Positions 7,756 to 59,185 of a stretch of 64,000 nucleotides of DNA are shown piece by piece. A program made the position numbers and the translations under genes. Position 1 is the first letter of the stretch. The number at the start of each line of letters is the position of its first letter. Source of the stretch: Rhodothermales bacterium (GTDB taxonomy: Bacteria > Bacteroidota > Rhodothermia > Rhodothermales > VXPQ01); NCBI GenBank assembly GCA_951812335.1, contig OX638293.1, positions 2,439,584 to 2,503,583 on the forward strand. The letters are read 5' to 3'. Below the pieces are notes generated by a model that had not been told where the DNA came from, did not search any database, and saw only the letters and a list, made by a program, of their open reading frames with translations.

Positions 7756-7779
7756 TTAAGGATACTCTGATTAAGTCCG
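7756..7779 (+). repeat. Solo end of the GGATACTCTGAT repeat (copy A)
   Basis: Contains TTAAGGATACTCTGATTAAG followed by TCCG. It matches the terminal inverted repeat of the full element at 9162-9425 (right-end version, read inward). No partner end lies nearby. It sits 9 bp upstream of the ATG of the YncE-like gene. Confidence 0.75.
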
Positions 7780-7788
7780 ACGGCTTTC

Positions 7789-9159
7789 ATGCGGCGATAT
7801 TTTGAAACCATCGCCCTCGTCTGCATACTGTGCGGCATCGCCGCAACGGTTTCCTCGATACAGGCAGCGGGACAAACGCGAATCGACATCGTGTTTACGC
7901 GCGATGTTCTTCCGGTTATTCGGAAATCCTTTCTTCCTCTTTTTACGGAGGACACCGGGCTCGACGGAGGATCATGGGAAACCTTGATGCGGGGATCCGA
8001 ACAGGGAGAAGTCGTCATTCCCTTCGACGCCGACCGAAGCCTGCTTATAGAGCGCGCAGAACTGGCGGGCATCGACCCCGCCGCCATTGCGCTGGTTCGG
8101 GCATGGATCGAAGGCGGCGCACAGAGCGACGCGGGAGAAATTCCGTATGCGGATGCAGGGCCGCTCCTCTATGTGTGCAACCAGGGATCCGCGGTGATTT
8201 CCGTTATCGACATGGAAGCCCATGTCGTCGTCCGTACCGTGGATCTGCGCGATTTTGGATTCTCCGGGAATGCCAAACCGCACCATGTGGCGGTCACCCC
8301 CGACGGGGCATTCTGGTACGTATCGCTCATCGGCGAGCATACCGTGCTGAAATTCAACCGGCTCAACGAGCTGGTGGGTCGCACGGCGTTCGAGGCGCCG
8401 GGTATGCTGGCCTTCGATCCTGTCCTGGAACAATTGTATGTGGGCCGGTCGATGAGCGCCGTCAACCCGCCGCAGCGCATCGGCATCATCGAGCCGGACA
8501 GCATGGATATCGAGGAAATCGACGTATTCCATCCCCGGCCGCACGCTCTTAACGTGACCCCCGACGGCAGGTACGTGTTCAGCGCCAGTCTCGGCATGAA
8601 TCAGATTGCTGTAGTGGACGCCGAATCCCTGAATATCGAACTCGTCCCCGTCCCGGGCACGCATCACAGCCTGGTGCAATTTACCGTGGCTCCCGACGGA
8701 CGCTCCATGATCGTCGGAGGGCATATGAGTGGAGATATCCTGTTTCTCGACATCACAGAGCCGATGCAGCCCGAGGTCACGCAAACCCTGCCCCTTGGCG
8801 GAGGGCCCTGGCATCCATCGTTTCTCCCCGGAGGGGATCGTGTGGTCTTTCCCGCCAAAATGGCCAACGCCGTTTCTATTCTTGACGTGGCTACCGGAAC
8901 CGAAGTCGAAAGAATTTTCGGGCACGGCCTCGCAGAGCCGCACGGCAGTGCGGTACGACCGGACGGACGGTATATCTACGTATCCAGCAACAACCTGAAC
9001 GCCGCGTTCACCCCCCGATACCACCAGGAAGACAATGATTCTCCCAACGGATCGGTGGTAGTCATCGACGCAAACACGTTCGACATCGTAAAGGTCATCG
9101 AGGTAGAACAGTATCCCACGGGCATCGGCGCTCAGCGGGATGAAGCGGCCGCCCGCTAA
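7789..9159 (+). CDS. YncE/YVTN-like beta-propeller protein with a haem-less cytochrome-like N-terminus
   Basis: A 456-residue exported protein with a signal peptide ending near SSIQAAG. Residues about 30-115 resemble the cytochrome-c-type module common in planctomycete and Bacteroidota proteins (FTRDVLPVIRKSFLPLF, later ALVRAWIEGGAQ), but there is no CxxCH, so haem cannot be bound covalently. Residues about 120-450 are YVTN/YncE propeller repeats (YVCNQGSAVISVIDM, VTPDGRYVF, VRPDGRYIYVSSNN). Probably a periplasmic or surface binding protein. It lies between two other propeller genes and is preceded by a repeat end 9 bp upstream. Confidence 0.82.
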   Translation: MRRYFETIALVCILCGIAATVSSIQAAGQTRIDIVFTRDVLPVIRKSFLPLFTEDTGLDGGSWETLMRGSEQGEVVIPFDADRSLLIERAELAGIDPAAIALVRAWIEGGAQSDAGEIPYADAGPLLYVCNQGSAVISVIDMEAHVVVRTVDLRDFGFSGNAKPHHVAVTPDGAFWYVSLIGEHTVLKFNRLNELVGRTAFEAPGMLAFDPVLEQLYVGRSMSAVNPPQRIGIIEPDSMDIEEIDVFHPRPHALNVTPDGRYVFSASLGMNQIAVVDAESLNIELVPVPGTHHSLVQFTVAPDGRSMIVGGHMSGDILFLDITEPMQPEVTQTLPLGGGPWHPSFLPGGDRVVFPAKMANAVSILDVATGTEVERIFGHGLAEPHGSAVRPDGRYIYVSSNNLNAAFTPRYHQEDNDSPNGSVVVIDANTFDIVKVIEVEQYPTGIGAQRDEAAAR

Positions 9160-9161
9160 GA

Positions 9162-9425
9162 CTTAGGGATACTCTGATCAAAACCGCTTCGATCGAGCGC
9201 TTCATGTTCGTGCGTAAACGACATCATGGTTCCCTCGTTGCAATTTGCGAAAAACACTGAGGTTTCGGGCATCGCGGACGTGAAGCGCCCTTCGGGAGGC
9301 TACGAGAAGCACGCTGGCCGCATCATTCCTCATTATGTGGGACCCGCCACATTGCTTCGTCATTCCTTGCCAGCGCACTTCTCGCAGCCTCTGAACTTCG
9401 CGGACTTAATCAGAGTATTCTTAGG
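9162..9425 (+). mobile_element. Near-complete 264-bp non-autonomous repeat element (copy B)
   Basis: Bounded by CTTAGGGATACTCTG on the left and, inverted, CCTAAGAATACTCTG on the right. It carries an internal inverted repeat of 21 bp (9298-9318 with 9369-9389, 18 of 21 matching) around a 50-bp loop. The left half matches the copy at 39355-39505 almost base for base, and parts match 58888-59024. It starts 3 bp after the stop of the YncE-like gene and ends against the ATG of the next gene. No credible protein is encoded, so I read it as a MITE-like element needing a transposase supplied in trans. Confidence 0.75.
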
Positions 9426-11375
9426 ATGCATCGTTCCCGTCTACTCCCTTTTCTTTTCCTCCTTTTCGGCGCGCTGCCGGTTACATTCCTTCCCGGTTGC
9501 GCCGGTACGGAACCGCGTGCAACAACCGAGCGGGCTGCTGGCGAAATACCCACCCGGCGTATAATCGCTCCCTTCGAGGTATTCAAGGCGAACGGCGACG
9601 CATACGCTTATCCTTTTCTCGGCGGATTCAACATGCCGAGACCTCAACTTCTCGATATCGATGCGGATGGAGACAATGACCTGTTCGTGCAGGAGCATCC
9701 GAACGCAATCATTTTTTTCGAGCGCAACGACACGCCGGGGCCGCTTTTATGGACCTGGCGCTCCGACAAATATGCAGGACTCGACATCGGAGAATGGTAC
9801 CGTTTCGCAGACATGGACGGAGACGGCGATTTCGACCTGCTCGCCGAGCAGCCTTTCAGTCATATGCGGTACTACAAAAACGTAGGAACGCCCCTGCGAG
9901 CCTCCTTCGTACAGGCGGCCGATACCCTTCGGGACGTAGATGGTGAACCGGTATTCTCCGACCGTCAGAACATCCCCAATATTACCGACATCGACTGCGA
10001 TGGCCTGCCGGATCTGTTCATTGGACGCATCGACGGCACCGTCATGCGGTACGAAGCCGTCGAAACCGAACCCACACCCGTATTCAGGCTACTTACAGAA
10101 AATTTTGAGGATATTCGGATTGTGGCTCAGTTTGGACAGCCTGGCATGCTCGCCCCGCCGGCCCTTCCGAATATTCCGGGAGGAGATGAAAATTTCATGA
10201 ACGAAGGGCCGTCTCCGGGAAAAGATTTCTTCGCGAAAGACACGCAAGGCCGGTCCGATCCGCTGCATGGAGCCAATACCATGACCTTTGCCGATATCGA
10301 CGGCGACGGCGACCAGGACCTGTTCTGGGGGGATTTCTTCGAGCCGGGCCTGCTGTATATCGAAAACACGGGGGGCTGCACCAGGCCTCGCCTGCGCACT
10401 ACGCCCGTTCCTTTTCCGCCCGCCGATCCGCTCCAGTCCAGCGGGTACAATGCCCCCTCTTTCGGAGATCTCGATGCCGACGGAGATATGGATCTGCTGG
10501 CAGGTGTCCTCGGGGGAGCCTTCAATCCGAACAGGACGGCGCGATCCAATCTGTATATGTACGAACAGCTCCCGGAAGAACGATTTGCGCTGCGTACGAC
10601 CCGATTCATGGACCAGATCGATGCGGGAAGCGAAAGCTATCCCGTGCTGGTCGATCTGGATGCGGACGGCGACGACGACCTGCTCGTCGCCAATAAAATC
10701 TCATCGGAAGACGGACGTACCGCCTCGCTGGCGTACTTCGAAAACGCAGACGGCGCATACCATGCAGGAGAAGCACCCGTCTTCTTTCCCGCCTATCATT
10801 ACGCGCCGGCCTTCGCAGACCTGGACGCCGACGGCGACAAGGACCTTTTGCTCGGGACATGGAACGACGGCATAGCATGGTACCGCAACGAAGGCGCCCC
10901 CGGCGCGCCGCATTTCGTTTTGAAACAGCGGGCATTTATCCGATTGACGCGCGGCAGTCACACCACGCCGGCATTGGTAGACATCGACAACGACGGCGAC
11001 CTTGACCTGTTCGTGGGCGAAACTTCCGGGACCATCAATTTCTACCGGAATGCAGGGATCCCTTCCGCCCCGGTCTTCGAGTTTGTTTCCGACGAATACG
11101 CCGGGATCGATGTCGGACGCCGCAGCGTTCCGACGTTTATCGATGCAGACCGCGACGGGGACCTGGACATGATTGTCGGAAGCGAGCACGAGGGCCTTCT
11201 GCTCTTTCGCAACCGGGGAGACCGGACCACGCCCATGTTCGGGGAAAGCGAACCGCTGCCGTACGATGTGCCCGAAACAGCAGCCCCGGCATTCGGCGAC
11301 CCGGATGGCGACGGCGCCCTCGAACTTGTGGTTGGCGGATACAGTGGCGGACTCCTTTACTTTGACGGACCGTAA
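9426..11375 (+). CDS. FG-GAP/VCBS repeat lipoprotein
   Basis: A 649-residue lipoprotein: signal MHRSRLLPFLFLLFGAL with lipobox FLPGC at about residue 25. The mature part is built from at least ten FG-GAP/VCBS-type blades with calcium-binding turns of the form DxDxDGDxD (DIDADGDNDLFV, DMDGDGDFDLL, DIDGDGDQDLF, DIDNDGDLDLFV). Such proteins form integrin-like propellers on the cell surface. The ATG directly abuts the right end of the repeat element at 9162-9425, so the leader of this gene is repeat sequence. Confidence 0.87.
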   Translation: MHRSRLLPFLFLLFGALPVTFLPGCAGTEPRATTERAAGEIPTRRIIAPFEVFKANGDAYAYPFLGGFNMPRPQLLDIDADGDNDLFVQEHPNAIIFFERNDTPGPLLWTWRSDKYAGLDIGEWYRFADMDGDGDFDLLAEQPFSHMRYYKNVGTPLRASFVQAADTLRDVDGEPVFSDRQNIPNITDIDCDGLPDLFIGRIDGTVMRYEAVETEPTPVFRLLTENFEDIRIVAQFGQPGMLAPPALPNIPGGDENFMNEGPSPGKDFFAKDTQGRSDPLHGANTMTFADIDGDGDQDLFWGDFFEPGLLYIENTGGCTRPRLRTTPVPFPPADPLQSSGYNAPSFGDLDADGDMDLLAGVLGGAFNPNRTARSNLYMYEQLPEERFALRTTRFMDQIDAGSESYPVLVDLDADGDDDLLVANKISSEDGRTASLAYFENADGAYHAGEAPVFFPAYHYAPAFADLDADGDKDLLLGTWNDGIAWYRNEGAPGAPHFVLKQRAFIRLTRGSHTTPALVDIDNDGDLDLFVGETSGTINFYRNAGIPSAPVFEFVSDEYAGIDVGRRSVPTFIDADRDGDLDMIVGSEHEGLLLFRNRGDRTTPMFGESEPLPYDVPETAAPAFGDPDGDGALELVVGGYSGGLLYFDGP

Positions 11376-11449
11376 CCTTCACATCAGGGCGGGTGTCCGC
11401 AACGACCCGCTGTCGAACACCAACAGGCTTCCGTACACACAGTAGCCCC

Positions 11450-12658: not shown

Positions 12659-12729
12659 TCACCCCCTGAAAGCATGCAACAGGGAGGTTTCGTTGGGCCA
12701 GCGCAGGCCCGGGCCACGCAACTTGCCGC

Positions 12730-37092: not shown

Positions 37093-37875
37093 TCAATACG
37101 AATAAATCACGCTTGCGCTCCAGAGAAAATCGTCACCCGAGATTTCGGTGTGCAAGGATTTGTTGATCATCGCCGACAGGGAAAACGGAAGACCTCTTTT
37201 CGCCAATACGGCGTGCGAAGAAAAATACGTCCCGCTCTCATCGTCTACCATATCGTCCATATCCTCTATTCCCAGATAGTAGACTTGCGAGTTTAGCGAA
37301 ACGGTCCATCCGTCGAACACGTCGATATTCGATAATGCGGTATTGAAGACGATAAAATTCAGGTTGCGCAAGGTGGTTTTTTCTATACCGCGCGCATACA
37401 GAACCAGCAGCCCTACACTCAGATTTTTCGTAAGGGAATATTCGGGCAGGACCTGCCCGCCTACGAATCTGCGGGCTATGATGGCGTCCCGAGGGACCTT
37501 ATCTTCGTCTTCCGTTTCCGTGACGGTCGATGTGACGAAGTTAAGGACGGAGTTGAGGGCGACTCGAAGCCTGAACTTGTCGGTTTGCATCATTCGGTAT
37601 TGCCACCGGAACACAAAATCCCAGGGTCTCCCTGTCGTGGCAAACCGAAGTTCCGGCTCGAACGTAAATTTCCCCTTTCCGATTCTCGTGTACGATTGTA
37701 TGGCGGGCTTACCGAGGGTAAAGTTGGGTATTTGCGAAACGCCTTTGTTGGTAATGCCGATCGTCCCCTCGAAGGCTTTCCGCTCCTGCTCGACCTCTTG
37801 AGCAAGCGCAAAGCGGGCAGGCAGGATGAACGAAAGGAACAGGATCGCGCCTGCGATCGGATAGGTCGTTTTCAT
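37093..37875 (-). CDS. Uncharacterised outer-membrane beta-barrel-like protein
   Basis: A 260-residue exported protein (MKTTYPIAGAILFLSF, cleavage after ALAQ). The mature part alternates hydrophobic and polar residues as in a beta-barrel (KFTFEPELRFATTG, FVFRWQYRMMQTDKFRLRVA, LSVGLLVLYARG) and ends with the aromatic strand FLWSASVIYSY. I do not recognise the family. The ATG at 37875 lies at the edge of a 59-bp tandem repeat array, so its leader consists of repeat copies. A remnant of a second copy of its 3' end lies at 39242-39354. Confidence 0.7.
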   Translation of the reverse strand: MKTTYPIAGAILFLSFILPARFALAQEVEQERKAFEGTIGITNKGVSQIPNFTLGKPAIQSYTRIGKGKFTFEPELRFATTGRPWDFVFRWQYRMMQTDKFRLRVALNSVLNFVTSTVTETEDEDKVPRDAIIARRFVGGQVLPEYSLTKNLSVGLLVLYARGIEKTTLRNLNFIVFNTALSNIDVFDGWTVSLNSQVYYLGIEDMDDMVDDESGTYFSSHAVLAKRGLPFSLSAMINKSLHTEISGDDFLWSASVIYSY

Positions 37876-38050
37876 AGTGCTTGTCAATGGACGATCCTTG
37901 CCTCAGGCTGCAAGCCCGCCTGCTTGATTTTTATGGTGCTTGTCAACGGACGATCCTTACATCAGGCTGTAAGTCCGCCTGCTTGATTTTTATGGTGCTT
38001 GTCAACGAACGATCCTTACATCAGGCTGTAAGTCCGCCTGCTTGATTTTT
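37874..38050. repeat. Three tandem copies of a 59-bp unit
   Basis: Units start at 37874, 37933 and 37992 and share GTGCTTGTCAA, GATCCTT, CAGGCTG and CCGCCTGCTTGATTTTT. Units 2 and 3 differ at few positions and unit 1 is more diverged. Each contains a small stem (CAGGC with GCCTG). The array begins at the start codon of the outer-membrane gene on the minus strand and extends upstream of it. Confidence 0.85.
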
Positions 38051-38267
38051 ATGGTTTTTCCCGGTTGTCGCCGCCCTGACCGGGTACCGGATAGGCTGCA
38101 ACAACATGTCGCTCTCCAACCGGAAACGCAAACGGCCCTTCGGCCCGCTGCGATCCGCGACGAAGAACGGTTGCAGAAAGCCGAAGGAGCACATTCCGTA
38201 AAGATAGGCAACCGGGACCGGCTTTCCAGTTTAGAGCACAAGCCCCTTATGTTATGAGTAATCTGGT
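38051..38267. other. Non-coding gap between the tandem array and the palindrome pair
   Basis: Frames exist on both strands but are short, Cys- or Arg-rich and without recognisable motifs. Together with the flanking repeats it forms a region of nearly 700 bp (37876-38566) lacking a confident gene, in an accessory patch of decayed sequence. Confidence 0.35.
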
Positions 38268-38355
38268 TATTCGACGCATTTATTACGTTGAATAATTATG
38301 TGACTTTTTTATGCATGAGCAGCGCTACTATTCGACGCATTTTTTGCGGTGAATG
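38268..38355. repeat. Pair of direct repeats, each a gapped palindrome
   Basis: TATTCGACG followed 9 nt later by CGTTGAATA at 38268-38294, and TATTCGACG followed 9 nt later by CGGTGAATG at 38329-38355. The first is an inverted repeat with one mismatch, the second with three. The units are 61 bp apart. They may be operator or recombination sites; nothing in the sequence decides. Confidence 0.5.
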
Positions 38356-38375
38356 ACTGCGTAAGCCCCTTGTAC

Positions 38376-38555
38376 ATGGGCGACACATCATCTTGCAGTG
38401 CCGGAAGCACGCCGAACGCTTGCGGATGCTGTGCCCCGGTTGAAACAGTTCAGGATACTCTGATCAAAACCGGTTCGCCCAAAAACGAGGGCGAACCGGT
38501 TGGAACAATTGTTTATTCTTTTCGTGATTGCATGAAATCATTTTTATCCGAATGA
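38376..38555 (+). pseudogene. Cys-rich 5' gene fragment interrupted by a repeat end
   Basis: From ATG 38376 the frame reads MGDTSSCSAGSTPNACGCC, then APVETV. The next codons (QDTLIKTG) are the GGATACTCTGATCAAA repeat end and its hairpin, after which the composition changes. I read this as the first 25 codons of a gene truncated by insertion of the repeat. The Cys cluster resembles the metal- or metalloid-binding N-termini of some arsenic-related or redox proteins, but I cannot name the family. A short Cys-rich peptide is the alternative. Confidence 0.3.
38452..38501 (+). repeat. Repeat end joined to a perfect 13-bp hairpin (copy C)
   Basis: GGATACTCTGATCAAA starts at 38453 and runs into an inverted repeat of 13 bp (38468-38480 with 38489-38501, no mismatches, 8-nt loop). 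The second arm is not the usual repeat end, so this is a chimeric copy. It lies 65 bp upstream of the antitoxin start and could influence transcription of the toxin-antitoxin pair. Confidence 0.7.
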
Positions 38556-38566
38556 ACGAGGATCTT

Positions 38567-38821
38567 ATGGCCAGTATCACCATTCGCAATCTCTCCGCAG
38601 AGTCGAAGGAACGACTCCGGCGCACAGCCAGAAAACGGGGTTGTAGCCTTGAAGCGTTGGTCCGGTCTATTCTGGACGACGCCGCCAGAGACGCTACCCA
38701 CGATACGGCAGCGGCCTCCGGATTTCCGTTCGATCTCATTTCGATGGTCGAGCCCGGCGAAGACATCGAACCGTTTCTGGAAGATCACGACCACCCGCAA
38801 GCGCCTCTGAACCTGCAATGA
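38567..38821 (+). CDS. FitA/VapB-type antitoxin
   Basis: An 84-residue protein starting MASITIRNLSAESKERLRR, a ribbon-helix-helix DNA-binding domain of the FitA/VapB type. The acidic C-terminus (EPGEDIEPFLEDHDH) would wrap the toxin. AGGAT lies 4 nt before the ATG at 38567; a longer start 13 codons upstream lacks this. Its stop overlaps the toxin ATG by 4 bp, the standard coupling of such modules. It would neutralise the PIN-domain toxin and repress the operon. Confidence 0.87.
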   Translation: MASITIRNLSAESKERLRRTARKRGCSLEALVRSILDDAARDATHDTAAASGFPFDLISMVEPGEDIEPFLEDHDHPQAPLNLQ

Positions 38822-39228
38822 TCCTGCTGGACACAAATGTATTGTCCGAGCTGACCAAGCCAACGCCTTCAGCTCATGTGGTCGCCTGGCTCAACGACAA
38901 CGAACCCATACTGGCGCTGTCGGCCGTCACGCTCGCCGAGTTGCGTTACGGGATAGCGCGGCTCCCCGATGGCAAGCGAAAGTCGAGCCTGATCCGTTTC
39001 TGGAACATGACCAGAGATCGTTTCAAAGGAAGAACCTTACCCTTCGACGAACGCACAGCCGAAATCTACGGCGATATCGTAGCCGAAGCCGAAAAGCAAG
39101 GACGGCGACTGAATGTTGCCGATGCGCAAATTGCGGCAATTGCTCTCGCGCACCGTATGTCCGTGGCGACGCGGAACACAGGGGATTTCGAGAATACGGG
39201 CGTGACGGAAATCAATCCCTGGACGTGA
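38818..39228 (+). CDS. vapC: VapC/FitB-type PIN-domain ribonuclease toxin
   Basis: A 136-residue PIN-domain protein with the expected acidic residues: Asp in MILLDTNVLSEL, Glu in VTLAELRYGI, Asp in LNVADAQIAAIA and Asp near the end in TRNTGDFENTG. PIN toxins of this class cleave tRNA or rRNA when freed from the antitoxin. The length is normal and the active site looks complete, so the toxin is probably functional. Its ATG overlaps the antitoxin stop. Confidence 0.93.
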   Translation: MILLDTNVLSELTKPTPSAHVVAWLNDNEPILALSAVTLAELRYGIARLPDGKRKSSLIRFWNMTRDRFKGRTLPFDERTAEIYGDIVAEAEKQGRRLNVADAQIAAIALAHRMSVATRNTGDFENTGVTEINPWT

Positions 39229-39241
39229 TTTCATCCTCTCC

Positions 39242-39354
39242 TCAATACGAATAAATCATACTTGCGCTCCAGAGAAAACTGTCACCGGGAAGATCGGTCC
39301 GAAAAGCCTTGTTCATCATAGCCGACAGGGAAAGCGGAAAACCGAAGTTGCACA
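39242..39354 (-). pseudogene. 3' remnant of a second copy of the outer-membrane protein at 37093-37875
   Basis: The minus strand encodes GFPLSLSAMMNKAFRTD and then FLWSASMIYSY before a stop, matching the last 37 or so codons of the gene at 37093-37875 in sequence and length. Upstream the match ends abruptly where the repeat element at 39355-39505 begins, so the 5' part has been lost or replaced. Confidence 0.8.
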
Positions 39355-39505
39355 GCCAGCGTGCCCCTCTCTGCCTCCCGAAGGGCGCTTCACGCCCGCC
39401 GACGCCCCGAATCTGCGGTGTTTTCCACTAATTTCAATGATGTAAAATCTTTTACGCACGAGCGTGAAGCGCTGGTCAAAGTGGATTTGATCAGAGTATC
39501 CTTAA
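39355..39505 (-). mobile_element. Half-element of the GGATACTCTGAT family (copy D)
   Basis: Read on the minus strand from 39505, it follows the left half of copy B (TTAAGGATACTCTGATCAAA, then GCGCTTCACGCTCGTGCG, then CGTGAAGCGCCCTTCGGG) as far as GCACGCTGGC, the inner edge of copy B's hairpin arm, then stops. Its other end and half the hairpin are missing. Its terminal bases form the last codons and the stop of the coiled-coil gene at 39491-39835. Confidence 0.8.
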
Positions 39506-39835
39506 AATCTGGAATACAAACTGCGCCAATACGCCGGCAATAACCCCAAAGCCCAACCCCATTATCCAGCGAAGAAGGACATTGTTTTGCTCCATCATGT
39601 CGGCCCGGAGTTCGCCTATCTCAGCGCGTACGGAACCTACCTCAGCTCGTACGGAACCTACCTCGGCTCGTACGGAACCTATCTCGGCTCGTACGGAACC
39701 TATCTCGGCTCGTACGAAATCTTCCGAGGCCGAGCCCCCCTGCCCGTTACGAATAGCTTTCGCTATCGCTTCGGCCGGGCGCTGTCCGAGGCCCGCATTC
39801 ACAAGAGCGTGGGCGATGGCAAGGGTGTCGATCAT
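39491..39835 (-). CDS. Coiled-coil protein with heptad repeats and C-terminal membrane anchor
   Basis: A 114-residue protein. The N-terminus (MIDTLAIAHALVNAGLGQRPAEAIA) resembles DUF1640/CCDC90-like proteins. The middle is a coiled coil built from five copies of a 7-residue unit (SVRAEIG/SVRAEVG). The C-terminal MGLGFGVIAGVLAQFVFQIL is a transmembrane helix. The last four residues and the stop (LRIL, TGA) are encoded by the end of the repeat element at 39355-39505, so the natural C-terminus may differ. Another repeat copy lies 15 bp upstream of the ATG. Function unknown. Confidence 0.72.
   Translation of the reverse strand: MIDTLAIAHALVNAGLGQRPAEAIAKAIRNGQGGSASEDFVRAEIGSVRAEIGSVRAEVGSVRAEVGSVRAEIGELRADMMEQNNVLLRWIMGLGFGVIAGVLAQFVFQILRIL
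39615..39719. repeat. Five tandem 21-bp repeats inside the coiled-coil gene
   Basis: Five contiguous 21-bp units of the form CCTATCTCGGCTCGTACGGAA begin at 39615, 39636, 39657, 39678 and 39699, with one to three differences between neighbours. They encode the heptads of the coiled coil, so copy-number change would keep the frame and alter coil length in steps of seven residues. Confidence 0.92.
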
Positions 39836-40136: not shown

Positions 40137-40160
40137 TACGGATACTCCGATCAAAACACT
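40137..40160 (+). repeat. Solo end of the GGATACTCTGAT family (copy F)
   Basis: ACGGATACTCCGATCAAAAC differs from the consensus end at one position (CTCTG to CTCCG). It ends 10 bp upstream of the ATG of the TIM-barrel gene, in the leader or promoter region. Confidence 0.7.
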
Positions 40161-46612: not shown

Positions 46613-46809
46613 CGATAGATGCGCCGCTTACGACGAAGCGCCCCTCTCACGCATGACCTTCCGACTTGATCCCGGCATGATCGACATTGCCGGAAGGCCA
46701 CTGAGCATCTTCCTGGAAACACGCCGCTCCACATGAAACGCAATGTGTTTCCAGGCGTTCGTGTGTACCTTGCGCATACTTCGCTCCGTATCCTTGCATT
46801 TCATCGGAC

Positions 46810-48183
46810 GTGCCCCTTCCCCCTGCCATAAAAGATTGGAGTCCTGCGTCCTGGCGAGAGCGGTCTGCGATGCAACAAGCCACGTACCGCGATCAGGCCG
46901 AATTGTCCGAAGCGCTGGCGCAGTTACACGCTTTGCCCCCGCTCGTGACATCCTGGGAAATCCATGTGCTCAAAAAACAGATTGCCGAAGCAACGCAAGG
47001 ACAGCGTTTTATCCTGCAGGGCGGCGAATGTGCGGAACACTTCGACGAATGCAGTGCGGAGATTATCGCCAATCGCCTGAAGGTGCTCCTTCAGATGAGC
47101 CTCGTGCTGATCTTCGGGATCCGGACACGCGTCGTACGGATAGGCCGCTTCGCCGGCCAGCATGCCAAGCCTCGCTCTGCCGGTACGGAGACACGCAATG
47201 GAGTAACGCTCCCGAGCTACCGAGGCGACATCGTCAACGGCGCAGCGTTCACACCCGAAGCGCGCGAACCGGACCCCAGGCGCATGCTGCGCGCCCATGC
47301 GCATTCCGCGATGACGCTGAATCTCGTCCGGGCGCTCACCAATACGGGGTTTGCGGATCTCCACCACCCGGAATACTGGAATCTCGATTTCATCCACCGT
47401 ACACCGCTGGAAAAAGAATACCGGCAGATCCTGGAATCCATTCGAGAGACCGTTGCATTCATTGAAACCGTCTCGGGCAACCCGCTTCACAGTCTGGAAC
47501 GCACCCAGTTCTTCACCAGCCACGAAGCATTGCACCTGCTTTACGAAGAAGCTTTCACGCGCAGCGTGCCGCACAATGAAGGCATATTCAATCTGGCAAC
47601 CCACTTCCCGTGGATCGGCGCCAGAACTTCAGACTACGAGGGAGCCCACATCGAATACGCACGGGGGCTTGTCAATCCGATCGGCGTGAAAGTGGGACCC
47701 TTCATGGCTCCGGAGGACCTGGTGCGCATCGTACGAATCCTGAACCCCGAAAACGACCCCGGTCGACTCGTACTCATTCATCGTCTGGGCGCCGGCTGCA
47801 TCGCCGATCTCCTGCCGCCCCTGATCCGGGTCGTGCAGGCTACGGGTACGCCGGTACTGTGGATGAGCGATCCCATGCACGGAAATACCGAGTTGACGGA
47901 CACAGGTATCAAGACCCGGCGTTTCGAAAACATTCTGGACGAACTCGAACAGGCATTTGACATTCATGCTGCGGAGGGTTCGCATCTCGGCGGCGTGCAT
48001 TTCGAACTCGCGGGAGAAGACGTTACCGAATGTACGGGCGGCGCAAGCGGCCTGGAGGACACGGATCTGGTGCGCGCCTACAAATCGCAAGTCGATCCGC
48101 GGCTGAATTACGAACAAGCGCTGGAAATGGCATTTCTCATCGTGAGAAAGAAAAATCGCATGGAAAACAAATCGGCTCAATGA
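46810..48183 (+). CDS. Class II 3-deoxy-7-phosphoheptulonate (DAHP) synthase
   Basis: Condenses phosphoenolpyruvate and erythrose 4-phosphate, the first step of the shikimate pathway. A 457-residue plant-type (class II) enzyme: FILQGGECAEHFDEC, VVRIGRFAGQHAKPRS, YRGDIVNG, LVNPIGVKVGPFM, WMSDPMHGNTEL and GVHFELAGEDVTECTGGA, including the metal-binding Cys, His, Glu and Asp. The frame opens at GTG 46810. Its stop overlaps the ATG of the next TonB receptor gene by 4 bp, an odd coupling between amino-acid synthesis and an outer-membrane receptor. Confidence 0.94.
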   Translation: MPLPPAIKDWSPASWRERSAMQQATYRDQAELSEALAQLHALPPLVTSWEIHVLKKQIAEATQGQRFILQGGECAEHFDECSAEIIANRLKVLLQMSLVLIFGIRTRVVRIGRFAGQHAKPRSAGTETRNGVTLPSYRGDIVNGAAFTPEAREPDPRRMLRAHAHSAMTLNLVRALTNTGFADLHHPEYWNLDFIHRTPLEKEYRQILESIRETVAFIETVSGNPLHSLERTQFFTSHEALHLLYEEAFTRSVPHNEGIFNLATHFPWIGARTSDYEGAHIEYARGLVNPIGVKVGPFMAPEDLVRIVRILNPENDPGRLVLIHRLGAGCIADLLPPLIRVVQATGTPVLWMSDPMHGNTELTDTGIKTRRFENILDELEQAFDIHAAEGSHLGGVHFELAGEDVTECTGGASGLEDTDLVRAYKSQVDPRLNYEQALEMAFLIVRKKNRMENKSAQ

Positions 48184-50447
48184 TCGCGCTCCTGTCACGG
48201 AACGTTCGTATCCTTCTCGGGCTTGTCGGGTTCGCGTTATTATTCATGCCGGGCCGCGTCCATGCGCAGCAGCAGCACGCCGCCGTGCGAGGGTTCGTAA
48301 CATCCCTGGAGGACGGACAACCTCTCCAGGGGGTACATGTCATTCTTACACGGGACGACGCCATTCTCGGCGCCGTAACCGATCCCGACGGGATATACCT
48401 GATAGGCCGTGTTCCGGAAGGGCGGTACATACTCCGGGCCACATTTATCGGATTCCAGACCTTTGCGGACACCCTCGACCTTGCAGCGGGCGACTCAAGG
48501 CACCTCGACATTGCACTGGCCGGGCAACAAGCCGCAATAGGCGAAATCGTAGTCGAGGCCGAACGGGAAACAGGCGCTGCCCGCGTGACCGCAGGCCAGC
48601 AACGAGTGCTCCCGCAAGACATCGAGTTGATCCCTTCGCCCAGCGTTTCCGGCGATCTCGTCAACTACCTTGCCGCTCAGCCCGGCGTGGTATCCATGGG
48701 AGATCGTGGAGGACAGATCTTCATTCGAGGCGGGGAGCCCTCCCAGAACCTTACGCTGCTCGACGGCATGAATATCTACCAGCCGTTCCACCTGCTGGGG
48801 TTCTATTCGGCGTTCCCATCGGACATCATCAATAATGCGGATATCTATGCGGGCGGATTCGGCGCTGAATTTTCGGGACGCCTCTCCTCCGTGATCGACG
48901 TACAAACACGCAACGGCAACAAACGGCGCTACGAAGCAGGCGTCGCGCTGACGCCCTTCGTGAATTCGGCCCGTCTGGAAGGACCGCTTGTAGGGAATAT
49001 CTCCTTCCTCGGCTCTGCCCGTATCTCGACCCTCGAAGAAGTGGCGGCCCTCTATGTGGCGGACGACCTGCCCTACCGGTTCGGCGACCTGTTCGGCAAG
49101 ATGCACATCCCGATCGCGCGGAATCACCAGACTTCCGTTTCGACGGTGCATACGTTCGACCGGGGCACGTTGGCGGAACCGACGCTCTTCAGCTCCAACA
49201 ATGAGATTCGCTGGAAAAACACCGCGCTCGGCGTACGACATCTCGTGCTCCCCGGGTCGCTCCCCATCCTCGGCGAAGCGCTGTTTTCCTGGTCCCGCCT
49301 CCAAACAGAGTTCGGGCCGAGCGACGAGCCATCCCGAACCACTGACGTGGACAATTATAATCTCGAGGTCAATTTTACCAACTTCGGGCAACGCGTTGAA
49401 GTGGGATGGGGTTTCTTCGTGCGTAATGTCGAACTCACCGCAGACCTCGGAGGAGCCTACCAGAACATTGTAGACAACTTCGTCCGCTCGACCAATGCAG
49501 GCGGCTGGGCGGAACCGGAATTCGACTTTGGCAACGGCTTCCGATTGCGGGTCGGAGCAGTCGGGCAGTTTTTCGGCAATTCGGGCTTCTTCGTGGAGCC
49601 ACGCATGCGTGGTGTCTTTGAACGAGGCATACATCAGTGGAGTATGGCCGCCGGCATGTACCGGCAAAACATCATCGGGTTAAGTGATCGGCGCGACGCC
49701 GCCAGTATCTTTACGGCCTACGCAGAGGCGCCAACCGGGGAAGTTCCGGTCGCTCTGCATAGCATTGCCGGGTATCGGATCACGCCCTCTTCCTCCCTCG
49801 AGGTTTCGGCGGAAGCGTTCTACAAAAATCTCCGTAACCTGTTTATTGCGGAATGGACGTCTTTCCCTCGTTTCACGACGCGACTTCAGCCGGCGGACGG
49901 TCAGGTTATCGGCATGGACCTCCGCGTAGAGTTCCGCCGTCCGAATTTTTACGCCTTCCTCAACTACGGCTACTCCTCGACCCGGTACAACGCTATGCAG
50001 GAATCGTTGCCTGTATGGTTCGGCGCGGATCGGCTCGCCTTCCGTCCTCCGCACGACCGGCGCCACCAGCTCAACCTGATCCTGAGCGGGTCCATGTACG
50101 GGTTCGACATGAGCGCCCGCTGGAATATCGGATCGGGCCTTCCCTATACCCAGGTACGCGGTTTCGACGGATTCATTCTTATGGATGGCGTGGTGGATGT
50201 GGAAGGTATACAGGGCTTTCCGCGCGTGATCTACGATCGGCCCTACGAGGGTATTCTCCCCACATACCACCGGTTCGACGTAATGATCGAGCGGAAGATG
50301 TCCACGCGCGCGGCGGACATCACCTTACACATCGGCGCGATCAACACCTACAACCGCCCCAATCTTTTTGCCCTGGACGTATTCACCCTGCGGCGAACCG
50401 ACCAGCTCCCCTTCGTTCCCACTGCGGGCATCGAGATCGAATTCTGA
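48180..50447 (+). CDS. TonB-dependent receptor with carboxypeptidase-regulatory-like domain
   Basis: A 755-residue outer-membrane receptor. The ATG at 48180 overlaps the DAHP synthase stop and starts a signal peptide ending RVHAQ. Residues about 30-115 are the regulatory-like beta-sandwich (AVRGFVTSLEDGQPLQGVHV, ILRATFIGFQTF). The plug has QIFIRGGEPSQNLTLLDGMN and SGRLSSVIDVQTRNG. The barrel ends in FVPTAGIEIEF. It is followed after 2 bp by a DUF4249-like lipoprotein, a common pairing in Bacteroidota. Confidence 0.92.
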   Translation: MIALLSRNVRILLGLVGFALLFMPGRVHAQQQHAAVRGFVTSLEDGQPLQGVHVILTRDDAILGAVTDPDGIYLIGRVPEGRYILRATFIGFQTFADTLDLAAGDSRHLDIALAGQQAAIGEIVVEAERETGAARVTAGQQRVLPQDIELIPSPSVSGDLVNYLAAQPGVVSMGDRGGQIFIRGGEPSQNLTLLDGMNIYQPFHLLGFYSAFPSDIINNADIYAGGFGAEFSGRLSSVIDVQTRNGNKRRYEAGVALTPFVNSARLEGPLVGNISFLGSARISTLEEVAALYVADDLPYRFGDLFGKMHIPIARNHQTSVSTVHTFDRGTLAEPTLFSSNNEIRWKNTALGVRHLVLPGSLPILGEALFSWSRLQTEFGPSDEPSRTTDVDNYNLEVNFTNFGQRVEVGWGFFVRNVELTADLGGAYQNIVDNFVRSTNAGGWAEPEFDFGNGFRLRVGAVGQFFGNSGFFVEPRMRGVFERGIHQWSMAAGMYRQNIIGLSDRRDAASIFTAYAEAPTGEVPVALHSIAGYRITPSSSLEVSAEAFYKNLRNLFIAEWTSFPRFTTRLQPADGQVIGMDLRVEFRRPNFYAFLNYGYSSTRYNAMQESLPVWFGADRLAFRPPHDRRHQLNLILSGSMYGFDMSARWNIGSGLPYTQVRGFDGFILMDGVVDVEGIQGFPRVIYDRPYEGILPTYHRFDVMIERKMSTRAADITLHIGAINTYNRPNLFALDVFTLRRTDQLPFVPTAGIEIEF

Positions 50448-50449
50448 TT

Positions 50450-52643: not shown

Positions 52644-52682
52644 AGGATACTCCGATTAGGTCCGCAAATCTCAGCGTATCCT
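52644..52682. repeat. 39-bp mini-palindrome of the repeat family (copy G)
   Basis: GGATACTCCGATTAGG on the left and, inverted, GGATACGCTGAGATTTG on the right, with only a few bases between. It fills most of the gap between the mnmA start and the SDR stop, and its right boundary overlaps the SDR stop codon (TAG followed by GATAC). Confidence 0.72.
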
Positions 52683-54571: not shown

Positions 54572-54640
54572 TCGGAAAAAAACCGGAAAACGGAAAACGA
54601 ACTGCACGGCCGAACGGAAATGCATTCCGGCCGGGGCGCA

Positions 54641-55972
54641 TTACGGAAGGCTCGCCTGCGAACCGAGACCCTTGTCATACTGCTCCTTGTACGCGCGAAC
54701 CGCCCTGAAAATAGCGCTTGCCAGATAATCCTGCCCGCGTTCGCTTGCCAGAAACGCCGCCTCGGACCGATTGCTGAGAAAGCCCAATTCAACCAGTACG
54801 GCGGGCATGGAAGCACCCCAGAGCACATAGAAACCGGCCTGTTTGACGCCCCGGTTCTTGCGTTGCACCCGTTTCTCGAACTGATCCTGGATAAGCACGG
54901 CGAGTTCCTGACTCTGCTGCATGTACGCGCTTTGCGTAAGCGCCATGCGAATGAGCGCTTCCTCGTTCATATCCTCGTATTCCCGCTGGGAACTCTCCAT
55001 CTTCACCACCTCGTTCTCCCGCTCCATCGTGCTGCGGGCGGCATCGGTTTTGTGCAGGCCGATGAAAAAGGTTTCGGTACCGCTCGCCGCCTTATTGCCC
55101 GCCGAATTCGCATGGATCGAAATGAACAGCTTGCCCCCGTGCTCGTTGGCGATCCGCCCCCGGTCCTTGAGTTCGATAAACCGGTCGTCCTGCCGCGTAT
55201 ACTCGACCTGCACGCCAAGACGCTCCTCAAGGTACGCTCCGAGTTTCAGCGAAACGGCAAGGGTAATGTTTTTTTCGATCAAGCCGTGCCCCCTCGTTCC
55301 CGGATCCTTGCCGCCATGTCCGGCATCGATCACCACGGTGTCCAGAAGCCACTGTCCACCCGCCGGGGCCTCTCCACTGGACGGCAAGGACGCCTCCCGG
55401 GTCCGACCCGTGGTCCCCCCACCGATAGCCGGCAACCGATCGGTGGACGTCGTGGCCAGCAGCGATACCGACCGAACGGGAATCTGCTGCGGATTCCCGT
55501 CCGCCTCCCGGCGCGAAGCGATCCGCCCGGATGTATACGCAAGTCCTACAAGAATATCGTTGGAGCCCCCGTCGCGGTATGCCGACACATCCACAGGCTG
55601 TCGGGCGTCAAGAGTAAACCGGAAAAACAGATGGCCTTCCTCTTCCTCCCCCGAATACCGGATGACAGGCCCTGCGGCATCACCCCTCACATGATCGGAG
55701 GCAAGCCTCGTATTGAAAAGGATCACCTCCAACTGTCCATCGGCAAGCATGCGCGGCTCGCTGTAGGCAGCCACCGGGCCGTCCGTATGAAAACGGATAA
55801 CGTAGCCCTTGCCGTCGGATCGCTCGGTCAGGGAAACGCGCTCCACCTGTGGGACGGCGCGAAGAGCAACCGCGTTTGACGAAGCAAGCGGAGCGACGGC
55901 CCCCTCGCTTTCATGAGAAGACGCCCCCGCCGCAGAAGCGGCAAGGACGATTATGGCGCAAAACCGGACCAT
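54641..55972 (-). CDS. N-acetylmuramoyl-L-alanine amidase (AmiC-like, AMIN plus Amidase_3)
   Basis: A 444-residue periplasmic zinc amidase that cleaves the amide between MurNAc and the stem peptide. The start at 55972 has GGGGG just upstream and gives the signal MVRFCAIIVLAASAAG; earlier ATGs are in frame. Residues about 45-150 resemble an AMIN-type domain (VERVSLTERSDGKGYVIRF). The catalytic domain has VVIDAGHGGKDPGTRGHG, the Glu in GLIEKNITLAVSL, SIHANSAGNKAASGTETFF and LVELGFLSN. Zinc ligands and the catalytic Glu are present. Confidence 0.92.
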   Translation of the reverse strand: MVRFCAIIVLAASAAGASSHESEGAVAPLASSNAVALRAVPQVERVSLTERSDGKGYVIRFHTDGPVAAYSEPRMLADGQLEVILFNTRLASDHVRGDAAGPVIRYSGEEEEGHLFFRFTLDARQPVDVSAYRDGGSNDILVGLAYTSGRIASRREADGNPQQIPVRSVSLLATTSTDRLPAIGGGTTGRTREASLPSSGEAPAGGQWLLDTVVIDAGHGGKDPGTRGHGLIEKNITLAVSLKLGAYLEERLGVQVEYTRQDDRFIELKDRGRIANEHGGKLFISIHANSAGNKAASGTETFFIGLHKTDAARSTMERENEVVKMESSQREYEDMNEEALIRMALTQSAYMQQSQELAVLIQDQFEKRVQRKNRGVKQAGFYVLWGASMPAVLVELGFLSNRSEAAFLASERGQDYLASAIFRAVRAYKEQYDKGLGSQASLP

Positions 55973-56159
55973 TCCCCCTACGGGAAATCCGCCGCGCAAA
56001 AAAAAGCCCGGACGCAAACGATGCATCATAGTTACGGAAACGGTCAGCAGGATCGCCTCCTCTGCATCTTGCGCCGGCGAAAGGGTGGGTGGTGGACGGG
56101 CAGAAAAGCAAATCGCAGCGCAAAACCCCACACTATCGGTAAATATACAAAAAAACTAT

Positions 56160-56192
56160 TAAAAAGCATAAGGGGAGGCCATGCGCCTCCCC
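56160..56192 (-). terminator. Rho-independent terminator of the coiled-coil protein gene
   Basis: On the minus strand an 8-bp stem GGGGAGGC with GCCTCCCC (56185-56192 with 56172-56179) around a 5-nt loop is followed by TTATGCTTTTT. It lies 22 bp after the stop of the gene ending at 56214 and so ends the sigma/membrane-partner/coiled-coil unit. Confidence 0.75.
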
Positions 56193-56213
56193 CGGCCTTT
56201 CAAAAAAGAAACC

Positions 56214-57131
56214 TTACCAGTCCAGCGTATCGTTTCCCAGCAACTCCTGCAGGCGGCGATCCACGATATCGCGCTGAAGCCGTTGGCGCTCGCCAATAGC
56301 CCACTGCAACTCTCGCAGCCGCTCCTTGAGTTCTTCCACTTCACGGCGACGATTCTCCTGTTTGAGTTCGAATATTTCGGCCAACCGTTCCCGCAATACC
56401 GCTATGCTGTCCCGGCGCGCTTTCCCCTCCTGCATCTCGACAAACTTTTGGGCCATACCCAGCACCTCTTTCTCCATGAACCGCTCACTCATCAGTTGGT
56501 TGAAAAGCCCCTTGTTCTTGTGCTGCATGTTCGAGAAATACCGCTGCATCTGGATATGCGGCAACTCGCTGGCCGTACGGGCCGCTTCCGCCGCATGAAG
56601 CGTCATATCCTCAGCCATTTGTCGCAATTCACCTATCCGCGATTTCTCAAAACGATGCTGCAGATCCTGGATGCGTTTTGCCTGTTCGCGCAGGTCCTCG
56701 GCCTTCCGTTCCAGAATGGTCTCGGGCGGTGCGGTAACGATAAACAAAATCATAGCGTTTTCTTCCATGCCCTCACAACCCCCATCCCGCAGGATGCAAT
56801 CAAAATTGCCCGTGGGAGTTTTCAACCACAAACTATCCCCTTCGAGAGCATACCGCCGCCCGTCTTGCAGTTGAATGATCAGATCCTTGTCGGAAGAAAA
56901 CGTAGTAAAATTCACGGAGGCCCCTTGCGGGGGAAATCCTTCAGGAAGGTTCTCGGGAGGAATTTCCCGGTCGTCGATAAACACAGCCCCCCCATCTACG
57001 CGAAACGAACGAATCGCCGGTTCGGCAACGCCATTGGAAACAACGTACTGCGCCGTCGCCGTTCCGGCAGCGAGAATCAGCATCGGCAGGGCAAGCAACC
57101 AGCCTTTGGAGTACAGGGAAAGAGAGTTCAT
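56214..57131 (-). CDS. Exported coiled-coil protein of unknown function
   Basis: A 305-residue protein with a signal peptide ending ATAQY. Residues 30-135 look like a small beta domain with two Cys (NFDCILRDGGCEGM). From about residue 140 to the end the chain is almost wholly helical and charged (ERKAEDLREQAKRIQDLQHR, RRREVEELKERLRELQWA), a long coiled coil. Family not recognised. It is the third gene after the sigma factor and its membrane partner, so it may belong to the same envelope-stress response. Confidence 0.7.
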   Translation of the reverse strand: MNSLSLYSKGWLLALPMLILAAGTATAQYVVSNGVAEPAIRSFRVDGGAVFIDDREIPPENLPEGFPPQGASVNFTTFSSDKDLIIQLQDGRRYALEGDSLWLKTPTGNFDCILRDGGCEGMEENAMILFIVTAPPETILERKAEDLREQAKRIQDLQHRFEKSRIGELRQMAEDMTLHAAEAARTASELPHIQMQRYFSNMQHKNKGLFNQLMSERFMEKEVLGMAQKFVEMQEGKARRDSIAVLRERLAEIFELKQENRRREVEELKERLRELQWAIGERQRLQRDIVDRRLQELLGNDTLDW

Positions 57132-57208
57132 GGCTTTACGGTATTTGTTGAGTATGGTGTGTTACCTCCAGTTTCCAGTAATCGATAGCGTAGTTTCGAT
57201 GTGCACCG

Positions 57209-58090
57209 TCAGCGGCGATCCGAGGCGGGCGTCAACCCGGGATTCCCCGATCCGACAGGGAGCATTTCGAGCGGCATCGCAGGCGTTTCCCAGCCTCCGG
57301 CCACCCCATCGCCGATACTCTGGATGCGCTGTTGCAGGTAAATGACATCGCTCCGATCGTCCCAGGCCGGTATTTCCAGCAGGACGAACCCCGGCTGTGC
57401 AAGCGCGCCGTCTCCAGCCTGTTCGGACGCAACAGCCGCCGTTTGCACTGGCCCGGCAGCGTCAGCAGGCGACGCATCCGCCAAGGCCGTTTGAGAAGGA
57501 GCTTCCGGCGCTGTTTCCGAGGGCGGGGCGCCGGAAGCAGCGGGAAGATCAGGAGAAGAAACAGCGGCAAGCCCCGTATCCCCACGCTGCACATCGGCCG
57601 CGCGATTCTCGGCCTCTCCGGCCGGGGAAAGTGTTTCGGGGAGAGCTACGGAAGGGGCTGCTTCCGTAGATACAGATGCATCGGGCCGGAGCGCCACCGG
57701 TTCGGAATCGGTCGAAGCTGGAGCAAACACATCCGCCCGAAACAATCCGATGAGCGCGACCGCCGCCAGCATCGCGGCGATGGCCCCGCCCGCGATACGT
57801 CTCGGCAGTCGCCGCACCACTCGTTTACGGGACAGGGCAGGGCGATTTTGTCGGGCGCCAGCGGGCTGGGCCTTCCGGGCGCCGGAGAGCGTCGTATGTT
57901 GCGCTGCCGCTTGCAGCACAGCCTCCACGGCCTCCGGATCGGGCCTCGCAGACCGGATTGCGGATCGCGCATCCAGCCAATCCTTCATTTCGCGCAGGGA
58001 AGCGGCCTCTTCCGTGCTCCCGGAGCCGGGATCCGAGGGCGTCCCCGAACCCTCGTACAGTTCGAGAAGCCTGGCGTTTTTCTTGTCCAT
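57209..58090 (-). CDS. Putative membrane-bound anti-sigma factor
   Basis: A 293-residue protein encoded 14 bp after the ECF sigma gene. The N-terminal 85 residues are cytoplasmic and charged (KNARLLELYEG, EMKDWLDARSAIRSA), then one transmembrane helix (IAGGAIAAMLAAVALIGLF), then a periplasmic Ala/Pro/Ser-rich linker and a C-terminal FVLLEIPAWDDRSDVIYL segment. This layout and the position fit an anti-sigma factor, but no zinc-binding His-Cys anti-sigma motif is visible, so the role rests on context. Confidence 0.6.
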   Translation of the reverse strand: MDKKNARLLELYEGSGTPSDPGSGSTEEAASLREMKDWLDARSAIRSARPDPEAVEAVLQAAAQHTTLSGARKAQPAGARQNRPALSRKRVVRRLPRRIAGGAIAAMLAAVALIGLFRADVFAPASTDSEPVALRPDASVSTEAAPSVALPETLSPAGEAENRAADVQRGDTGLAAVSSPDLPAASGAPPSETAPEAPSQTALADASPADAAGPVQTAAVASEQAGDGALAQPGFVLLEIPAWDDRSDVIYLQQRIQSIGDGVAGGWETPAMPLEMLPVGSGNPGLTPASDRR

Positions 58091-58104
58091 ACCGGTTCGT
58101 TGTA

Positions 58105-58710
58105 TCAAGTGGTTCGTATTCCTTCGGCCTCCTCGCCGAGTTCCATCCGTATCATCTTTTGCAGGTTGAGAAGCGCATAGCGCATCCGTCCCAGCGCCGT
58201 ATTGATAGACACATTCGTAAGCTCCGCAATCTCCCGAAACGTCATGCCGGTTTCGTGACGCAGCAGCAGTACCTCGCGCTGTTCGCCCGGCAACCGTTCG
58301 ATGCATTGTTCCATAATGTCAATCCGGTGGCGCAGGTCCACCTGTTTGTCGGCAGGCGCCGGTGCTCCCGGCAAGCGATCCCAAAAAGAGCCGTCCTGCG
58401 CATCGTTCGTTTCCACATCGGTCCATTTTTTTCGCTCGCGCATGTGGTCGAAGACCGCATTGCGGGCAATGCGCATCACCCAGGCCAGCCATTTGCCCTG
58501 CGATGCATACGATCCGCGTTCCTTCTTCATCGCGCGGATAGCGCGAAAGAAGGTTTCCTGAAACAGGTCGTTCGCTATGTCCCGATTACGCACCATGCCC
58601 ATCACATAGCCGAATATGCGCTCCTGATGCCGTTCCACCAGCTGGCGGAAGGCCTCCTGATCGTCTTCTTCAATGTATGCGACCGCAAGGGCCTCATCCG
58701 TACGATGCAT
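58105..58710 (-). CDS. ECF-type RNA polymerase sigma factor
   Basis: A 201-residue sigma factor. Region 2: RQLVERHQERIFGYVMGM, DLFQETFFRAIRAMKKE, WLAWVMRIARNAVFDHMRE. Region 4: LPGEQREVLLLRHETGMTFR, then EIAELTNVSINTALGRMRYA. First gene of a probable operon with a membrane-anchored partner and an exported coiled-coil protein, hence probably an envelope-stress regulator. The ATG at 58710 (MHRTDEALAVAYIEED) is the natural start. Confidence 0.93.
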   Translation of the reverse strand: MHRTDEALAVAYIEEDDQEAFRQLVERHQERIFGYVMGMVRNRDIANDLFQETFFRAIRAMKKERGSYASQGKWLAWVMRIARNAVFDHMRERKKWTDVETNDAQDGSFWDRLPGAPAPADKQVDLRHRIDIMEQCIERLPGEQREVLLLRHETGMTFREIAELTNVSINTALGRMRYALLNLQKMIRMELGEEAEGIRTT

Positions 58711-59185
58711 TCGGAATGACGGAACGGACGGGATGCAGAAAAATTATCCTGTTCCAGCCGCGCAATCCTTATCCAGAGAACCAATTCCTATGCAAGAACG
58801 AGGCAGGAACGGAATTATTGTTTCACGGACGAATTGGTTGGTTTTATTGAAACCGCACGCTGCCGGGAAAGATCGATCCGGGCGGCTTTAAGGATACTCT
58901 GATCAAAACCGCTTCGCTCAGCGCTTCGCGTTTGTGCGTATAAGAATATCATAATTGCATCGTTGAAATTAGCGGAAAACGCTGCGGACTCGGGGCAGTG
59001 CGGACTTAATCAGAGTATCCTTAAGGAACCATTCGGGCATCTCTTTCATAATGAATTGGTTGCCGAAGACCGCCGCAAAGGCGCCTTCCTGTTCGAAAAC
59101 GCAACGCAACACGCCGTGCGCAGCGGCATCGCCACCCCTTGTACCGCCACTGCCTTACTTCTTCGTTCGATTCCCGCCGCGCGCA
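58711..59185. other. 475-bp divergent intergenic region with a repeat copy
   Basis: Separates the sigma-factor operon (minus) from the Mla genes (plus). Its centre is repeat copy H (58888-59024). The flanks hold no credible gene, although an ATG at 59051 is in frame with mlaE and would add a 45-residue non-conserved extension. Promoters of both operons must lie here. Confidence 0.4.
58888..59024 (+). mobile_element. Internally deleted element of the GGATACTCTGAT family (copy H)
   Basis: A 137-bp copy with both ends: TTAAGGATACTCTGATCAAA at the left and CGGACTTAATCAGAGTATCC then TTAA at the right. Between them it shares the left-interior sequence of copies B and D (GCGCTTCGCGTTTGTGCG, GTTGAAATTAGCGGAAAA), but the central hairpin arms are missing. 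The outermost bases are TTAA on both sides. Confidence 0.8.

Follow-up and report, generated by a model that had tools for sequence, protein, structure and literature searches.

The repeats scattered over a 64,000-nucleotide stretch of a Rhodothermales genome (contig OX638293.1, positions 2,439,584 to 2,503,583; hereafter, the window) are very probably the copies and scars of a single family of miniature inverted-repeat transposable elements (MITEs), which was spread by an IS5-type transposase and then decayed. This repeat of one Rhodothermales genus, which makes up 2% of the sequence that we sampled, is now characterized and tied to a likely IS5 parent. We found that insertion of the element makes a 4-bp, TTAA-like target duplication, and that fragments of an IS5-family insertion sequence (IS) in a related genome carry the same ends. 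The original prediction, made from the letters of the window alone, had described eight places with common inverted ends as a non-autonomous element that had spread and decayed. This description was upheld by 465 end matches in the genome, by the IS5 partner, by empty sites, and by two sites at which a full-length copy in one genome corresponds to a 37-bp form in the other. In two collinear genomes, it is possible to follow, one site at a time, how such an element inserts, how it loses its core and shrinks to a 37-bp scar, and how the parent breaks down.

Anatomy and distribution of the element

The consensus of 30 full copies is about 254-256 bp long, and exactly 254 bp was found in 33 of 85 copies. 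Its two ends are identical over the first 12 bp (GGATACTCTGAT) and agree partially beyond; in the full element, either end taken alone also forms a degenerate 37-bp palindrome (GGATACTCTGA-N15-TCAG). Either strand is predicted to fold into a closed multi-branched hairpin, composed of a terminal stem and two internal hairpins, with very stable energies (-107 and -126 kcal/mol for the two strands). We read the element as non-coding, with no transposase gene inside: the longest stop-free run in 88 full copies was 86 codons, and the lengths of these copies modulo 3 (37, 37, and 14 copies) leave no common coding frame. The best frame (+2) was open over the whole element in 44 of the 88 copies and had stops in the other half; the open frame is probably a by-product of base composition.

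The genome that contains the window (G000) is one contig of 2,686,407 bp. The end pattern GGATACTCTGATYAA, with up to 2 mismatches, gave 465 matches in this genome (227 forward and 238 reverse), and the reversed control gave none. A similarity search of the same genome with a 264-bp query, in which 40 of 270 candidates were scored, gave 48 matches, and 41 of these were complete or almost so. We also built a profile from 30 copies, including the copy at 9162 of the window. In a 264-kb sample, which was one contiguous region (the window and 200 kb around it) and not a random one, the profile gave 48 matches at an E-value of 0.1 or less, of which 15 spanned 230 or more model positions; the corresponding numbers for 320 kb of the related genome G004 were 43 and 14. 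The sample matches, a few of which are weak, merged into 37 clusters, and these occupied 5,301 bp, or 2.0% of the 264 kb. Extrapolation from this sample gives about 150 full copies and about 375 places per genome. Paralogues within the genome were up to 98.8% identical, and the median identity to the nearest neighbor was 91.4% (45 copies).

The element was present in all five other genomes of the genus and in none of the 34 other genomes drawn from the order (6 of 40 when the genome of the window is included). In a draw of 394 genomes from the phylum, with two candidates scored for each, four matched, all of this genus. A 21-base end pattern gave at least 68 stretches in named genomes, which came from the metagenome-assembled genomes (MAGs) OX638295.1, JANQSQ01, and JAJDWX01 (Rhodothermales) and from one 5.2-kb contig; it gave no matches in viral contigs. 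The label of the 5.2-kb contig (L078, JAGWBX010000099.1) is Candidatus Latescibacterota, but over 1.9 kb this repeat-bearing contig has 89% identity to G004; judging from this identity, it is probably a misbinned Rhodothermales contig. No match was found between plasmid records and the window piece 46743-50447.

Most of the element lies between genes. According to gene calls made for this analysis from open reading frames (ORFs) and codon usage, predicted genes hold 6.3% of the element bases in the 264-kb sample, compared with 84.8% coding overall, and the elements account for about 12% of the non-coding bases. Among 88 copies, 51 were located between tandem genes, 18 between divergent genes, and 3 between convergent genes, and 16 were unplaced.

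Target sites and the probable parent insertion sequence

The 4-bp flanks of 85 full copies agreed at 237 positions, compared with a mean of 167.1 (standard deviation 6.9, maximum 197 in 2000) in permutations in which flanks were re-paired among copies; 15 of 100 profile matches were left out of this test owing to identical junctions, unrecognized ends, or short flanks. Among flank lengths (k) of 2 to 9, the summed agreement was above the permutation range only at k=4. Exact 4-bp pairs were observed in 21 of the 85 copies, and TTAA was the commonest (9 of 21). Members of the IS5 family commonly give 4-bp, YTAR-like duplications.

Occupied and empty sites were compared by using G004, which is collinear with the window in reverse orientation at 87-95% identity (below, S0 coordinates refer to the genome of the window and S4 coordinates to G004). 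The 264-kb sample has 15 full copies; at the corresponding sites of G004, the copy is also full in 5 cases, partial in 4, and missing in 5, and 1 site was not placeable. In the case of the copy at 58892 of the window, which has TTAA on both sides, G004 has one TTAA and about 14 further differing bases on the left. At S0 139488, where a full copy stands beside a partial copy, TTAA is a single target in G004. The flanks at S0 4299 are TTAT and TTAC, and the empty G004 site is TTAT; those at S0 108007 are CATG and CATA, and the empty site is CATA.

A candidate for the parent was found in the same genus. PF01609 (DDE_Tnp_1) gave nine matches in four of the six genus genomes, and a family-type end was located near each of the three G004 matches and near none of the six others. 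In locus L132 of G004, GGATACTCTGATTTAATCC begins 66 bp before the ATG and GGATTGATCAGAGTATCC ends 157 bp after the stop, and the reading frame between these ends is internally deleted. Two further G004 loci are also damaged: L125 keeps the 3' half with the 3' end 157 bp after the stop, and L129 is internally deleted with the 3' end at 167 bp. Locus L141 has only the 5' part, with the 5' end at 66 bp. In the genome of the window, a fragment search gave L136 (2,685,034) as the only relic of a matching transposase; it is a 3' relic with the same downstream sequence, and its end at 157 bp is damaged. This relic and the one PF01609 match of that genome both lie outside the window, in agreement with the earlier statement that the window holds no transposase with such ends. 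In genome G001, a transposase relic (L135) is joined to MITE core sequence.

A 145-amino-acid transposase fragment scored 142.9 bits against NF033581 (IS5_4; cut-off, 140), and an N-terminal fragment matched DUF772 (25 bits; cut-off, 23.1). By these model matches, the transposase fragments of the likely parent are members of the IS5 family. The prefix that their ends have in common with the MITE is 12-15 bp long. A search of the genus with the IS5_4 model gave only the G004 fragments. By genome, the IS is represented by fragments in G004 and by relics in G000 and G001, and no match was found in G002, G003, and G005. MAGs can lose repeats; such loss matters less for G000 and G004, which are single contigs.

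When 114 genomes from the order were searched, relatives of the fragment turned up in 11, which belong either to this genus or to one other family, f15. Among these relatives, an intact 328-amino-acid transposase (L143) from the other family is 72% identical over the fragment and lies between the ends GGAATGTCTGATCAA and GGATGTTCTGATTTA, which resemble those of the MITE. In genome G049 of family f15, 33 pieces match the IS5 transposase fragment, many of them with stops or shortened; from these pieces, this IS group seems to have multiplied and decayed in that family as well. A second IS5-like element (L126 and L130, in G000 and G002), which has open frames of 221-231 amino acids, was rejected as the parent: its inverted repeats are TAGGGC(G/C)TGTTAACACTA, and it has no MITE ends.

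Several results weigh against spread by an IS5-type transposase. Among the full copies, 64 of 85 have no exact 4-bp duplication, and exact pairs at k=2 (15) also exceed the permutations (mean 4.9, maximum 12), although the summed agreement at k=2 does not (45 versus 43.8). Three of the sites absent from G004 (12057, 35907, and 90595) differ more widely at the G004 junction and could include deletions there. The MITE and the IS are alike at their ends only, and the 4-bp flanks of L143 do not match each other. An intact transposase with these ends was found in none of the six genus genomes, in searches that a more distant transposase would escape. Because none was found, mobilization by this very enzyme is an inference.

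The element has the features of a bacterial MITE: it is short with inverted ends, makes a duplication of fixed 4-bp length, has no transposase, occurs in many intergenic copies, and shares its ends with broken copies of an autonomous relative. As for an IS5 parent, a match to the transposase model was obtained and an intact element in the genus was not. In the history that we favor, an IS5-family transposase would have recognized the ends common to the MITE and its own IS, and would have moved the MITE in trans into AT-rich, TTAA-like intergenic sites with a 4-bp duplication each time. The MITE family multiplied within one genus, and in the six genus genomes searched the parent IS was found as fragments or not at all. 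Resident copies would have lost the hairpin core by slippage at short direct repeats, which would give 37-bp palindromes, halves, and solo ends.

Copies in the window and their decay

The end motif GGATACTCTGATCAAA, with up to 3 mismatches, gave 10 matches in the window against 0.39 expected, a number reached in none of 100 shuffles. These matches covered seven of the eight places of the original prediction. The eighth, at 52644, had no motif match at this threshold; it was recovered by the profile (E-value, 0.00088) and is a palindrome with family-type ends. The solo end at 40140 was detected by a motif match (1 mismatch) and was not among the profile matches. The interior that the prediction had assigned to three copies is indeed common to them, as the profile gave 282.8 bits for the copy at 9162, 128.4 bits for that at 39355, and 100.0 bits for that at 58888. 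The 264 bp that had been reported for the 9162 copy are the 255-bp element and a few flanking bases. The refined coordinates are given in Table 1.

Table 1. Copies and remnants of the element in the window, with the state of the corresponding place in G004
Feature	Position	Strand	Evidence	Corresponding place in G004
Solo right-end fragment	7758..7779	-	motif and profile	same site without element
Full-length element, 255 bp, between two tandem genes	9167..9421	+	motif and profile	full copy at same place
Left end, then unrelated hairpin	38453..38481	+	motif and profile; faces end at 39501	
Truncated element, model positions 2-160	39348..39501	-	profile	absent
37-bp mini-palindrome, flanks TTAA/TTAA	39855..39891	+		same form
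Solo end	40140..40155	+	motif match only	38-bp palindromic version
37-bp mini-palindrome, flanks TACA/TACA	52645..52681	-		full-length element, same TACA/TACA flanks
Element with an internal deletion that joins model 2-114 to 234-256; TTAA/TTAA flanks	58892..59020	+		single TTAA, no element

In the DNA scanned, short two-ended copies formed a sharp class of 37 bp (12 sites) and 38 bp (2 sites), together with scattered longer ones; chance matches and the ends of longer copies were removed from this tally by eye, and the 37-bp pattern with 3 mismatches also matches many ends of full copies. A deletion that joins the CTCTGA of the left end to a CTCTGA close to the right end would leave the 37-bp form. 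In an alternative route, a TCAG close to the left end is joined to the TCAG of the right end. Left-end and right-end types of the 37-bp form were both seen, as the two deletion routes predict. Slippage across the foot of a palindrome gives such a pattern. In the copy at 58892, the junction is GCGGAC, which is present on both sides of the lost piece. The window site at 52645-52681 also has its reverse case: S0 24667 is full in the genome of the window, and the corresponding S4 277728 is 37 bp in G004. These junctions fit an origin of the mini-palindromes by deletion between short direct repeats, and it is from the junctions that we read the mechanism and its direction. Thus, the near-complete, half, internally deleted, mini-palindromic, and solo forms named in the original prediction are accounted for.

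The 37-bp mini-palindrome could instead be the basic mobile unit, and the 254-bp element two such units around a core. The palindromic nature of the full-element ends would agree with this view, as would the exact 4-bp flank repeats on several 37-bp forms (TTAA, TACA, and CTTG) and the empty G004 site of the 37-bp form at S0 4299. One 37-bp sequence, moreover, is letter-identical at L059 3189 and L064 2733, although the flanks of these two sites differ. However, deletion is the simplest explanation of the two sites that are 37 bp in one genome and full in the other, and the two end types are those that deletion predicts. We therefore consider an independent mini-palindrome unlikely and prefer decay of the full MITE.

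Facing ends at 38453 and 39501 (flanks TTCA/TTAA) enclose a FitA-like antitoxin gene (38567-38821) and a PIN-domain gene (38818-39228), and the G004 site is without the 38453-39501 segment; here, a toxin-antitoxin pair may have become trapped between two ends of the element. Facing end pairs more than 300 bp apart numbered 22 in the 1.17 Mb scanned. A 59-bp tandem repeat (3.2 copies, 37869-38055) is located just before this segment, where the genome of the window and G004 differ, and a second small palindromic repeat, of the ATTCGACGCATTTTTTGCG type, occurs twice at 38260-38375, where G004 has three copies. A 21-bp tandem repeat (4.9 copies, 39615-39716) lies within the reverse-strand ORF 39491-39835, which has a sub-threshold match to a coiled-coil family.

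Hairpin arms and comparison with known elements

The arms of the hairpin covary. In 88 distinct full copies, compensatory cells numbered 107, whereas 300 permutations gave 37 on average and 50 at most, and cells changed on both sides fell from 147 to 24-92 when the partner was slid by 1-3 columns; independence is overstated in these numbers, as the set consists of related copies, some of them orthologues from two genomes, and was in part assembled by likeness to the window copy or by an exact right end. A transcribed RNA under selection would tolerate G·U on the transcribed strand and not A·C. Over the 64 pairs found in both folds, however, G-T (222) and A-C (224) were equally frequent, and the same was true of the mRNA strand of the 51 copies with tandem neighbors (132 and 136, respectively; p=0.85). 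Thus, selection on the arms at the RNA level was not supported by either test. In the fold of each strand taken alone, its own G·U pairs were in excess (703 to 320 for the bottom strand and 563 to 291 for the top strand), as choosing the fold on that strand would give. RNAalifold gave -45.4 for the bottom strand and -29.4 for the top strand. As a tentative and rather doubtful explanation, the arms may be kept complementary as DNA, either as a cruciform or hairpin needed for mobility or persistence, or by template-switching re-copying between the arms; upkeep at this level predicts covariation with equal G-T and A-C mismatches, as found.

These counts bear on the view that the element, whatever its origin, is a regulatory or structural RNA (an attenuator, terminator, or processing hairpin) kept by selection between genes. 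The very stable folds on both strands and the arm covariation would be in its favor, as would the frequent tight position between tandem genes, where 33 copies are oriented with transcription and 18 against it (p=0.049, not corrected for orthologues). In addition to the equal mismatch counts, copies differ between close relatives, which argues against such a role, and an Rfam scan of the window at gathering thresholds gave one tRNA and no match for the element. Convergent gaps are rare among the copies (3 of 72 placed copies, whereas 30 of the 185 neighboring gene pairs of the sample are convergent); thus, the gene context does not support a terminator role. An RNA kept by selection is very unlikely in view of these results.

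The least probable origin, which we all but dismiss, is that of repetitive extragenic palindromic (REP) or bacterial interspersed mosaic element-like palindromes spread by a REP-associated Y1 tyrosine transposase, an enzyme that works on hairpins of single-stranded DNA and makes no target duplication: the element is palindromic and intergenic and has several hundred ends, but PF01797 was found in none of the six genus genomes (versus 5 of 14 control genomes), 4-bp target duplications are present, and IS5 fragments carry the same ends. The label "MITE/REP-like" given in the original prediction therefore stands for its MITE part and not for a REP-like mechanism.

In the open-access literature on bacterial MITEs, IS5 and TTAA, Rhodothermales, and sponge symbionts, the family was not described among the matches listed, and the 12-base end string occurs in 6 papers, none of which concerns bacterial repeats to judge by its title. 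This agrees with the earlier suggestion that the family was undescribed. We regard the element as an undescribed-looking family of a well-known kind, the IS5-derived bacterial MITE. Annotators can mask it and so avoid calling its copies genes or regulatory RNAs.

The IS5_4 (NF033581) insertion sequences are the likely parent, as transposase fragments of this family have the same ends; the MITE differs from them in having no transposase, and about 12-15 bp per end are in common. Among known MITEs, BrickBuilt and related elements of Porphyromonas gingivalis are similar: as reported (PMC4596501), they have IS5-matching ends with no transposase remnant inside, and one P. gingivalis site is described in an occupied and an empty state, with a 4-bp duplication. 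They differ in their ends (GAGACCTTCGCA), in a copy number of around 10-20, in a 23-nt repeat inside, and in varying duplication lengths, whereas the core of the element studied here is palindromic, its ends number several hundred, and its duplication is 4 bp long and TTAA-like.

The other comparisons are mostly with elements as described in a second report (PMC10969869). The Chunjie MITE of Geobacter uraniireducens is alike in having an intergenic full element of 235 bp and many partial copies; it has 38 copies with conserved ends and 57 partial ones in one genome, whereas our element occurs in all six genus genomes and in more copies. QMITE1 and QMITE2 of Coxiella burnetii likewise have few full and many short copies (QMITE1 ranges from 39 to 400 bp, and 10 of 78 QMITE2 copies are full-length) and a very stable predicted fold. 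With direct repeats of 7-9 bp, ends of 23-29 bp, and 78 QMITE2 copies, however, they are different elements. ERIC, Correia, and REP sequences, compared by description, are also palindromic, intergenic, high-copy repeats; REP differs in depending on another enzyme class (Y1), which is absent from the six genus genomes. As ERIC reaches 711 copies in Photorhabdus luminescens, the copy number of the element reported here is not extreme.

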